A stretch of DNA of 34,984 nucleotides, from contig JAGQUM010000050.1 of NCBI GenBank assembly GCA_020438485.1, forward strand, positions 1 through 34,984, given 5' to 3'. The stretch is from Thermoleophilia bacterium. GTDB taxonomy: Bacteria > Actinomycetota > Thermoleophilia > Miltoncostaeales > Miltoncostaeaceae. This document shows, piece after piece, positions 28,786 through 32,656 of this stretch. The notes beneath the pieces are model-generated. The model saw nothing but the letters and a program-made list of their open reading frames with translations. It was not told the DNA's origin and ran no database searches. Each line of letters opens with the position of its first letter. The first letter of the stretch is position 1. A program made the translations under genes and the position numbers.

Positions 28786-30554
28786 ACACCGACACCGTGC
28801 CCTCCCACTCCGCACCCGAGGCCCCCGGAAGCGCCACCCGCCACGGGTACTTCACCACGTCGAACGGCGTTCCGCTGCTGGGGCACCTGCACGGGGGCAC
28901 CGCCGAGCGAGGGGTCGCCGCGCTCATCGTGGCCCCGTTCGGCTGGGAGGACGTGTGCAGCTACCGTCCGCGCCGCGCGCTGGCCCGGCGCCTGGCCGCC
29001 GAGGGGATCCCCACGCTGCGCTTCGACGCCCCCGGCGCCGGCGACAGCGCGGGCGACGCCTCGCTGCCGGGCCGCGTGGACGCCTGGATCGACGCCGTCG
29101 CCCGCGCGGCGCAGGTTCTGCGGGACGAGACGGGGTGCGCGCGCGCCGTCGCCGTCGGGATCGGGCCCGGCGCCGTCGTGGCGGGGCACGCGCTGCTTGC
29201 CGGCGCCCTCCTGGACGCCGCCGTGCTATGGCCCGCCGTGGGGCGCGGCCGCCAGTTCGTGCGCGAGATGGCGGCGCTGAGGCGGCTGGAGCGCCAGGAG
29301 TACGCGTCCGAGGCCGACGATGGCGAGGACGACGGCACCGTCGCCGGGTTCCTGGCCGACGCCGCGTTCCGCGACGCGCTGTCCGCGCTCGACCTGGCCG
29401 ATGCCGCCGGGTCCGGCTCGCTCGCGGGCGCCCGGGTGCTGGCGATGGGCCGCGACGGCATCGCGCCGGACGCGCGCCTCGTGGACGCCCTGCGCGGCGG
29501 CGGCGCCTCGGTCGAAACCGACGGGGGGGCCGGATACGGCGCCATGATGGCCGACCCCCAGGCGGCGCGCATCCACGGCGACACCTCCGCCCGCATCGCC
29601 GGGTTCTGCCTGGACGTCGGCCAGGACCTGCCCGCCGGCGACGTGACGGCAGTGCTGCAGCCCACCGCGCGGGTTGCGGACGGCGTCGACGAGCACCCTG
29701 TCGAGCTGCGTGCGGCGGACGACGGGCCCACGCTGTTCGGCCTGTGGTGCCGGCCCGCCGGCGGCGCGGCGGCCGATCGGGTCGCCGTGTTCCTCAACGC
29801 GGGCAGCGTGCGACACATCGGCCCCAACCGGCTGTGGGTGGAGATGGCCCGCGACCTCGCGCGGAGGGGCATCCCCAGCCTGCGCGCCGACCTGTCGGGC
29901 ATCGGCGACGGCGACGGCGACGAGGACCTGCGCACGCAGGAGGCTGGGCTGCACGACCCGTCGCTGGTGGTCGAGGCCCGCCACGTCGTCGACGCGGCCC
30001 TCGCGGGCTCCGGCGCGGCCCGCGCAGGGCTGGTGGGCCTGTGCAGCGGCGCGGCATGGAGCGCGCACGTGGCCGCCGACGACATGCGCGTCGACCGCGC
30101 CGTGATGATCAACCCCCGGTACATCGTGTGGGACCAGGACGTCGCCGACGCCCGCGAGACCGCAAGCGCGTCCACGTCGGTGCTGCGCCGCTCCGCGTGG
30201 CGCAAGCTGGCGGAGGGCCGCGTGACGCCCCGTCGAGCGGCGGCCGTGGCCCACGCGATGCTCACCCGCGCGGTGGGGGCCGCCACCCGGCGCCGGTCGT
30301 CGCGCGACGTGCCACCGGCCGCGGCCGACGTGGTCCGCCGCCTCGGCCGCCCGGGCCTGCGGGCGCTGTTCGTGTTCACGGCCGGCGAACCCCTGCTGGA
30401 GGAGCTCGAGGCCGACCGGCTACTGGCCCGCCGCGACGCTCCCGACGTCGTGCGGCTGGAGGACGCGGGCCACACGCTGCGGCCGCGCTGGGCGCAGGAG
30501 CGCGCGATCGAGATCGTGTCGCGGCACGTCGCCGGCGACGACCGCCCGGCCTAG
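28782..30554 (+). CDS. Tandem alpha/beta-hydrolase of the carrier-protein operon
   Basis: A 590-residue cytoplasmic protein made of two alpha/beta-hydrolase domains, about 20-280 and 305-585. They resemble exosortase-system-associated hydrolases (APFGWEDVCSYRPRRALARRL; FLNAGSVRHIGPNRLW). In domain 1 the nucleophile elbow is GIGPG (126-130), with no Ser, Cys or Asp, so this half is probably inactive. In domain 2 the elbow is GLCSG (419-423), placing Cys421 as nucleophile, and a late His lies in DAGHTLRP. It could release or transfer the aminoacyl group from the carrier protein, which is inference from the operon. GTG 28782 overlaps the ligase stop. Its TAG shares CTAG with the stop of the convergent YihY gene. 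Confidence 0.8.
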   Translation: MNTDTVPSHSAPEAPGSATRHGYFTTSNGVPLLGHLHGGTAERGVAALIVAPFGWEDVCSYRPRRALARRLAAEGIPTLRFDAPGAGDSAGDASLPGRVDAWIDAVARAAQVLRDETGCARAVAVGIGPGAVVAGHALLAGALLDAAVLWPAVGRGRQFVREMAALRRLERQEYASEADDGEDDGTVAGFLADAAFRDALSALDLADAAGSGSLAGARVLAMGRDGIAPDARLVDALRGGGASVETDGGAGYGAMMADPQAARIHGDTSARIAGFCLDVGQDLPAGDVTAVLQPTARVADGVDEHPVELRAADDGPTLFGLWCRPAGGAAADRVAVFLNAGSVRHIGPNRLWVEMARDLARRGIPSLRADLSGIGDGDGDEDLRTQEAGLHDPSLVVEARHVVDAALAGSGAARAGLVGLCSGAAWSAHVAADDMRVDRAVMINPRYIVWDQDVADARETASASTSVLRRSAWRKLAEGRVTPRRAAAVAHAMLTRAVGAATRRRSSRDVPPAAADVVRRLGRPGLRALFVFTAGEPLLEELEADRLLARRDAPDVVRLEDAGHTLRPRWAQERAIEIVSRHVAGDDRPA

Positions 30555-31522
30555 ATGTCCTCGGCGTCTCGCGCGCGCGACGCGCGGCGCAGGCGTCCCC
30601 GCAGGAACCGGTACTCCTGGTTGGCCTCCGCCCCCACGAGCAGCACGACCCCCAGGGCCCAGAGGAACGTGAGGTACACCACGATGGTCGCCAGGCCGCC
30701 GTACACGGCGAAGCTGTCGAACAGCGACAGGTACCAGGCGAACGCCTGCGTGAAGCCGATCGTCCCGATGGACGCCACGAGCACGCCCAGCCCGTAGCTG
30801 CGGTGGGCCCGCTCGGGGTCGTTGGGCCCGAAGCGGTAGATCACCCAGATCATCACCAGCAGCATCAGGACCGCGACGGGGAACCACAGGTCGGCCAGCC
30901 GCCGCACCGTCGCGTGGTCCCAGTCGTAGCGGTCCCCCAGGAAGCCGATGAAGTCCTGCCCGACCAGCAGGGCACCGTTCACGATCACCATCCAGAACGC
31001 CCACATGGCAGCGAACGCAATCCCCACGAACTTGCCGCGCACCCACCCCCGGTGCGGCACGTCGGCCGCCCGGTCGAGGCCCGTGATGAGGGCCCCGATG
31101 GCGTTGCCCACCAGGTAGAGGGCGCCGAGGCTGCCGACCACCAGGAACACGGCGGCGCGCCCCTGGTTGCGGGCCGCCGAGCGCAGCACATCACCCAGGA
31201 TCTCCTGGTACGCCTGGGGGATCTGCTCGCGGTACGTGTCCTGCACCCGCGTCGCGGCGTCCCGGCCGCCCACCAGGCTCACGGCGGAGATGATCACGAT
31301 GAACAGCGGCACGGTGGCGATGAACGCGTTGTAGGCGAACTGGCTGGCCAGGCCCGTCACCTGGTCCCGTTGGGAGCGCATGGTGGTACCCACGATGAGC
31401 CGCCACAGCGTGCGCACGACCCGGACGGGCAGCGCTCGGCGGCGCGGCGCCGCGGGGATCTCGGGTTCCGCCGCAGGGGCGCCCGCCGCCGGCGAAGGGA
31501 GGTGGGGTGGGCCGTCGGTCAT
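30551..31522 (-). CDS. YihY/BrkB-family membrane protein
   Basis: A 323-residue inner-membrane protein with about six transmembrane helices, typical of the YihY/virulence-factor-BrkB family. Recognisable blocks are the start of the core (QVTGLASQFAYNAFIATVPLFIV), a long amphipathic loop, LFDSFAVYGGLATIVVYLTFLWA and the final GAEANQEYRF, a family signature near the last helix. It has a Pro/Ala-rich cytoplasmic N-terminus. The biochemical role is not settled; early naming as ribonuclease BN was wrong. ATG 31522 or ATG 31546 are both possible and neither has a ribosome binding site. The stop overlaps the stop of the tandem hydrolase (CTAG at 30551-30554). Confidence 0.87.
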   Translation of the reverse strand: MTDGPPHLPSPAAGAPAAEPEIPAAPRRRALPVRVVRTLWRLIVGTTMRSQRDQVTGLASQFAYNAFIATVPLFIVIISAVSLVGGRDAATRVQDTYREQIPQAYQEILGDVLRSAARNQGRAAVFLVVGSLGALYLVGNAIGALITGLDRAADVPHRGWVRGKFVGIAFAAMWAFWMVIVNGALLVGQDFIGFLGDRYDWDHATVRRLADLWFPVAVLMLLVMIWVIYRFGPNDPERAHRSYGLGVLVASIGTIGFTQAFAWYLSLFDSFAVYGGLATIVVYLTFLWALGVVLLVGAEANQEYRFLRGRLRRASRARDAEDI

Positions 31523-31652
31523 TCTCGGGAGGATGCAATCACGCATCGGCGTGACATGCCTTTCGCCCCCACCACGGGCCTCACCTGCCCGAACGTCCAG
31601 CGGCGGCCACCCGGGCGGGGGGTGAAACCGTGATGAAACTGCGCAAACCTCC

Positions 31653-31775
31653 TAGTGAGGGATCGTCCGGGATGCTCCGCATTCGGGGTGTGCGCGCAAG
31701 GGCACAGCGCCGCGCGCCTCGAGCGAGAAAGCCGCACCGGACGCCGGCTGGCTCGCAATGGGCGGTCCCTCACTG
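31653..31775 (+). ncRNA. Candidate structured RNA with a four-way junction
   Basis: Bases 31653-31669 pair with 31759-31775 in a 17-pair helix: 13 Watson-Crick and 4 G-U pairs, with a perfect nine-base core (AGTGAGGGA/TCCCTCACT). Inside, three hairpins abut without gaps: 31670-31684 (six pairs, three-base loop), 31685-31720 (ten pairs plus a three-pair tip, one bulge) and 31721-31754 (four and five pairs around an internal loop). Only 31755-31758 (GCAA) remain unpaired at the junction. The G-U pairs favour a plus-strand transcript, since they would be A-C mismatches on the minus strand. It could be a small RNA or the leader of the next gene. It matches no RNA family I recognise. Confidence 0.45.
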
Positions 31776-31797
31776 CTCGCGTCCGCGCGCTTTCGAC

Positions 31798-31803
31798 TAT
31801 GAA
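31798..31803 (+). promoter_or_regulatory. Candidate -10 box for the 3-hydroxyisobutyrate dehydrogenase-like gene
   Basis: TATGAA is followed by seven bases and ATG 31811, the same layout as for yaaA and lhr. If used, the message is leaderless and the structured element upstream is a separate transcript. An overlapping in-frame ATG at 31799 lies within this box. Confidence 0.33.
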
Positions 31804-31810
31804 TACCGGC

Positions 31811-32656
31811 ATGGACGTGGGCTTCATCGGGACCGGGCTCATGGGCGCGGGCATGGTGCGCAACCTCCGCGACGCGGGTCACGACGTCACCGTGTTCGCG
31901 CGCACGCCCGCGCGCGCCCCCGAAATGGGTGTGCCCGTCGTGACCGACGTGACGGGCGCCGTCTCGGGACGCGACGCCGCGGGCCTGTGCGTCACCGACT
32001 CGGGCGACTCGGCGGAGGTGGTGCGCGCGATACTGGCCACTGCGCAGCCGCCGCCGCTGATCCTCGACATGAGCACCATCGCGCCGGCGGCGGCCCGGTC
32101 GCTGGCCGCCGAGTGCGCCGCCCACGGGGTCGCCTACCTCGACTGCCCGGTGAGCGGCGGCCCGCCGGGGGCCGACGCGGGGACCCTGGCGATCATGTGC
32201 GGCGGAGACGCGGACGCGTACGCGCGGGCCGCGCCGCTGCTCGACGCGATGGGCGACCCGGCCCGGCGCACGTACTGCGGGCCGTCCGGCGCGGGCCTGG
32301 TGGCGAAGCTCGTCAACAACGCCCTGGTGGGCGTCATCAGCGCGTCCACGGCCGAGGCCCTCGGCATGGCCCAGCGGGCGGGGCTCGACCCGGCGCTGGC
32401 ACGCGAGGTGGTGCTCGGCGCGACGGGCGCGTCGTGGCAGTTGGAGAACCTCTTCCCTCGCGTCCTCGCCGGCGACCACGCGCCCGGGTTCACGGCCCAG
32501 AACCTCGTGAAGGACCTCGGCCACGCGCTGGGTCTGGATGACACCCCGATGCCGTTCGCCGAGGAGGCCCTGCGGCAGATGGCCGAAGTCGACCCCGCGC
32601 TCGACTACGGCGCCGTCGCGCGCCGTTCGATGGAGCTCCCGGAGAACCGCCGGTAA
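31811..32656 (+). CDS. Beta-hydroxyacid dehydrogenase (3-hydroxyisobutyrate dehydrogenase type)
   Basis: A 281-residue NAD(P)-dependent oxidoreductase. The Rossmann start is VGFIGTGLMGAGMVRNL. The substrate-binding signature DCPVSGGPPGADAGTLAIMCGG is clear (DxPVSGG). The catalytic lysine is in VAKLVNNALVG, and the C-terminal helical domain follows (FTAQNLVKDLGHAL). Family substrates include 3-hydroxyisobutyrate, tartronate semialdehyde and succinic semialdehyde. The second position of the cofactor loop is followed by FARTPAR, whose Arg suggests NADPH preference. ATG 31811 is used, with ATG 31799 (adding MNTG) as an alternative; neither has a ribosome binding site. A hairpin follows the stop. 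Confidence 0.88.
   Translation: MDVGFIGTGLMGAGMVRNLRDAGHDVTVFARTPARAPEMGVPVVTDVTGAVSGRDAAGLCVTDSGDSAEVVRAILATAQPPPLILDMSTIAPAAARSLAAECAAHGVAYLDCPVSGGPPGADAGTLAIMCGGDADAYARAAPLLDAMGDPARRTYCGPSGAGLVAKLVNNALVGVISASTAEALGMAQRAGLDPALAREVVLGATGASWQLENLFPRVLAGDHAPGFTAQNLVKDLGHALGLDDTPMPFAEEALRQMAEVDPALDYGAVARRSMELPENRR

Follow-up and report, generated by a model that had tools for sequence, protein, structure and literature searches.

Positions 31653-31775 (+ strand) of the window, the whole 34,984-nucleotide stretch of contig JAGQUM010000050.1 analyzed here, almost certainly represent a conserved structured RNA that folds into a four-way junction. The host belongs to the Miltoncostaeaceae or nearby (Thermoleophilia, Actinomycetota), and the RNA is a previously undescribed family of ~105-125 nt with a narrow distribution in one bacterial family, the Miltoncostaeaceae. 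A sequence-only reading had proposed a new structured RNA at this site, and the proposal has stood: shuffled sequences fold worse, nine homologues carry compensatory changes and no match to an Rfam family, a tRNA or a tmRNA was obtained.

The predicted fold has a minimum free energy of -75.3 kcal/mol, whereas its shuffled versions average -54.6 kcal/mol (z -5.49; RNAfold, 200 dinucleotide shuffles). None of the 200 shuffles folds as well, which settles the shuffle check named in that reading. RNAfold also reproduces the architecture described there, i.e., a 17-pair closing helix with four G-U pairs and three abutting hairpins, together forming the four-way junction. The core of this closing helix (P1) that is conserved across relatives comprises 14 pairs in the window, delineated by RNAfold and covariation, with its 5' strand at 31655-31668 and its 3' strand at 31760-31773. 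The 5' strand extends to 31653-31669 in this genome, and the outermost U-G and A-U pairs as well as the innermost G-U pair occur in the window genome only. P2 is a small hairpin (AUGC-UCC-GCAU, 31672-31682) that is supported in genus g1 and in genus g12, but not in g6. Based on genome features, we take g12, of which G012 is a single-contig genome, to be Miltoncostaea. P3 forms the long arm (31683-31722), with changes on both sides in 10-11 of the 13 modeled pairs, and its apical loop GGGCAC (31700-31705) is invariant in all nine homologues. According to the fold and a hand alignment, P4 (31723-31756) consists of P4a (GCGAG/CUCGC), P4b (AGCCG/CGGCU) and a loop with CACCGGAC. A kissing pair between the P2 and P3 loops (CC with GGG) looked plausible by eye and was discarded for its inconsistency in G014.

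When 100 related genomes were searched at the DNA level, a single convincing homologue emerged, in the congeneric G001 (70% identical, same gap); the other blastn matches were noise of 18-50 bases. The G001 RNA adopts the same junction fold and, in this comparison of two sequences, six pairs are changed on both sides while no predicted pair is broken. Further copies were found in the DNA upstream of family-wide orthologues of the downstream dehydrogenase, which were collected by a protein search. A first covariance model (R1) combined with inspection located the RNA upstream of the dehydrogenase in G015, G006, G012, G025, G019 and G014, whose minimum-energy folds are likewise closed four-way junctions, P2 being weak in the two g6 genomes. 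Eight sequences served to build a second model (R2), which recovered the ninth copy in G022, a genome outside the training set, in the same genomic setting and with a score of 90.5 bits. The covariance model thus finds one copy per genome in nine genomes from four genera of Miltoncostaeaceae, and the fold beats its shuffles in each of the seven homologues tested (z -3.3 to -5.6). Among 399 genomes of the class, R2 returned exactly the nine carriers at an E-value of 0.05; in the phylum sample (296 genomes), its matches were limited to family members and one chance match in a protein-coding frame. That match, in G576 (L148, 35.7 bits), is taken as chance because the frame around it resembles a universal stress protein, and the R1 matches outside the family (L038-L042) and in G000:C68 were dismissed for their low scores and the lack of a common setting. 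Neither the class nor the phylum sample contained a convincing covariance-model match outside the Miltoncostaeaceae.

Covariation was scored for the 25 pairs of P1 and P3 in a MAFFT alignment that was not fitted to the structure. In this alignment 87.4% of the P1/P3 cells are paired, compared to 75.7% in shuffles and 37-45% when the partners are slid by 1-3 columns. Double compensatory changes occur in 17 of the 25 pairs, compared to 8.4 in shuffles and 2-6 in slid versions. The covariation score (0.49-0.51, versus 0.08-0.17 for the slid versions) was reached by none of 500 shuffles. Compensatory changes, which the sequence-only reading had suggested looking for in relatives, are therefore found in the nine genomes beyond both the shuffle and the slid-partner controls. 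The same picture emerges from a model-fitted alignment, which is biased toward the model and contains the chance match L148. In the hand alignment, paired cells amount to 107/110 for P1, 42/45 for the P3 tip and 43/43 for P4a across nine genomes, to 31/31 for P4b in seven genomes and to 28/28 for P2 in six genomes; the alignment does not support P2 in the two g6 genomes. P4 provides an example of a full swap, from GCGAG/CUCGC to CGCUC/GAGCG. The opposite strand of 31653-31775 is also a good folder. The hand-aligned helices contain 15 G-U and no A-C combinations and, although this alignment is biased toward the structure, it has no reason to favor G-U over A-C strand-wise in P1; the RNA is therefore read from the + strand.

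All nine genomes have the same gene 30-74 nt downstream of the RNA and in the same orientation. In the window this gene (31811-32656, + strand, with an in-frame ATG also at 31799) encodes a member of the 3-hydroxyisobutyrate dehydrogenase superfamily, an NAD(P)-dependent dehydrogenase with two NAD-binding domains (Pfam PF03446, PF14833), for which all curated NCBIfam equivalogs scored below cut-off. The divergent upstream neighbor is a YihY/BrkB membrane protein (30551-31546, - strand; Pfam PF03631). The intergenic gap, given earlier as 276 bases, measures 252-264 bases from the YihY/BrkB gene (31546) to the dehydrogenase ATG at 31799 or 31811, close to the original figure. YihY is the divergent neighbor in most carriers, while G014 has the apparent end of Fpg just upstream of the RNA instead. 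Since G014 keeps the pairing of RNA and dehydrogenase without an adjoining YihY, the RNA stays with the dehydrogenase rather than with YihY. R2 detected no RNA where the dehydrogenase has other neighbors (g9, G010, G005), and in genus g8 YihY adjoins the dehydrogenase with the RNA absent. In the dehydrogenase tree, many forks of which are weak, G014 groups with the RNA-less g9 while the other carriers are found elsewhere. This arrangement suggests that the RNA is old and has been lost several times. Separately, the gap between YihY and the dehydrogenase in g8 (L069) contains CATCGCGCCACGGGGCGCCCCGTGGCGCGATG, a perfect palindrome immediately upstream of the -10 element, and a similar GC-rich hairpin is located at a contig end in G004. 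Three dehydrogenases from MAG records titled Bifidobacterium breve (L086, L092, L093) are 58-62% identical to that of the window and group with Miltoncostaeaceae; these titles are probably wrong.

We propose, with a confidence barely above an even chance, that the element acts as a stand-alone small structured RNA instead of as a leader or riboswitch of the dehydrogenase. Three features favor this interpretation: a candidate -10 signal before P1, a dehydrogenase that is mostly leaderless and the absence of an expression platform. An AT peak lies 8-13 nt upstream of P1 in all nine genomes (0.69 in the top 5-nt window, versus a mean of 0.28) and is the strongest within 177 nt upstream; it is as expected of a -10 element with transcription starting at P1. 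In the window it corresponds to the candidate -10 element AAACCT (31645-31650, + strand). No canonical sigma-70 pair was found upstream of the RNA. A G-run at approximately -41 to -36 from P1 followed by a GAAA-like sequence is also conserved in the nine upstream regions; its counterpart in the window, a G-run and then TGAAAC (31612-31628, + strand), is a candidate -35 or regulator region according to the upstream alignment. In g12 this element takes the form of a palindrome, CCCCCCGGGGGGCGAAA, found with 0-1 mismatch only at the RNA locus in three genomes (L153, L154, L155), and the G-run with its GAAA element is a possible regulator site.

At the dehydrogenase itself, a TANNNT motif at -13/-12 is present in 18 of 28 genomes, compared to 0.02 expected from random positions. 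Such a motif around -12 is a signal of leaderless genes described for Actinobacteria (PMC3160421). Most of the remaining genomes have TATGAAT at the dehydrogenase start, with or without the RNA; in the window this candidate -10 element of a leaderless mRNA is located at 31798-31804 (+ strand), and it is also found in the RNA-less G017 and G008. Taken over the family, TANNNT or TATGAAT precedes the start codon by 5-7 nt in ~26 of 30 orthologues, so the gene is apparently leaderless family-wide; only G015 and G006 have switched to a start with a clear Shine-Dalgarno sequence. Seven of the nine RNA carriers have this leaderless -10 element downstream of the RNA, and the main dehydrogenase transcript would therefore lack the RNA.

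As a stand-alone molecule, the RNA would be read from the + strand off its own promoter, starting near the first base of P1, and would accumulate as a separate small RNA rather than existing solely within the dehydrogenase mRNA. Compactness and stability would come from P1. The action of the RNA, either by pairing with another RNA or by binding a protein or ligand, may be mediated by the P3 loop, which is invariant and exposed, and by the C-rich single-stranded stretch that follows P1.

The competing model, a cis-acting leader of the dehydrogenase mRNA (riboswitch or protein-bound) in which the junction senses a metabolite or protein and regulates the gene 30-74 nt downstream at the level of transcription or translation, has a considerable probability that nevertheless falls short of one half. 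Gene, strand and order are constant in nine genomes of four genera, even with the different upstream neighbor in G014, and the RNA is not found where the dehydrogenase has moved. This unbroken tie to a single gene is the pattern expected of a cis-acting leader and counts against a stand-alone RNA. The same holds for G015 and G006, where the dehydrogenase has a clear Shine-Dalgarno sequence, pairable within the fold, and no visible promoter of its own. The compact junction with its invariant loop is, moreover, aptamer-like. A further point against the stand-alone interpretation is that no intrinsic terminator follows the RNA: no stem with a T-tract was found there in the window. Many GC-rich actinobacterial terminators lack a T-tract. 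What counts against a leader, in turn, is the leaderless -10 element in 7/9 carriers and the association with one gene only. Across the nine genomes, no consistent fold joins the RNA and the start codon and no conserved expression platform was found, nor does the window offer a terminator that could serve as one. On a read-through transcript of the window (31774-31821), a pairing is possible between the bases that follow the RNA, GCUCGCGUCC, and the start of the dehydrogenase, GGACGUGGGC (z -2.3 to -3.2); this pairing is not conserved among relatives. Both models may hold if some transcripts read through, as the two g6 genomes hint. A more specific variant, in which the RNA is an aptamer class for a metabolite or cofactor of the accompanying dehydrogenase, is unlikely; the four-way junction and GGGCAC loop of such an aptamer would be unlike those of any described riboswitch.

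It is far less probable that the element merely insulates neighboring genes, or stops or slows the polymerase between them, with the fold serving only that purpose. The RNA does have transcription units on both sides, in G014 with Fpg immediately before it, but a simple hairpin would be enough for such a role, a U-tract is missing, and a conserved four-way junction, an invariant loop and a sense-strand bias exceed the need. It is hardly credible that the region is coding, be it as a small ORF or as an N-terminal extension of the dehydrogenase: the frame is open in this genome, where an ORF (31655-32656) spans the RNA and the dehydrogenase, but the distance between RNA start and gene start varies over all three phases, stops break the dehydrogenase frame in G001, G015, G019 and G022, and substitutions track the base pairs. 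With phase and stops differing between genomes, we consider the region as noncoding. Because no stop interrupts this frame along the RNA in the window, automatic annotation could wrongly extend the dehydrogenase N-terminally across it. Equally implausible is a mobile or repeated palindromic element, whose long near-palindromic ends are set against one copy per genome at an orthologous site in every carrier and no plasmid match; the single copy rules out a MITE or repeat for this genome.

With this RNA, a bacterial order without RNA work in the literature searched gains a well-supported structured RNA family; the papers found there that mention Miltoncostaea have no RNA discovery in their titles or abstracts. 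It also illustrates that a fold noticed by eye in GC-rich sequence can withstand comparative tests. The fixed pairing with the dehydrogenase offers a concrete gene for testing the function of the RNA and, if a cultured Miltoncostaea strain carries it, expression and ligand or target become testable.

Compared with known systems, the RNA fits no Rfam family, in line with the initial impression. Rfam 15 gave nothing above the gathering threshold in the whole window, Rfam applied permissively to the gap and to six loci homologous to it gave chance-level matches only, and ARAGORN found no tRNA or tmRNA. The weak Rfam matches to mir-3138, Scr5676, ASdes and IRES_Bip remained below threshold and were rejected. 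The Streptomyces RNA Scr5676 (RF02832) is the only Rfam model that aligns across the entire element (13.8 bits), but it does so on the opposite strand, far below the gathering score of 56, with an E-value of 3.3 and most pairs broken, and the match is attributed to chance. The closest parallels are the structured-RNA candidates surveyed from long GC-rich intergenic regions by the Breaker laboratory (PMC11109978, PMC2864571), among them the yjbM motif with three members (PMC11109978). Unlike those candidates, the present RNA and its homologues are fitted by no Rfam 15 model, yet they share the GC-rich gap, the complex fold, the covariation, the constant gene neighbor and the small number of members. 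Orphan riboswitch candidates differ by the leaderless gene start in most carriers and the conserved expression platform that was not found here, but they share with the RNA the multi-helix junction, the invariant loop and the location before one enzyme gene on the same strand.
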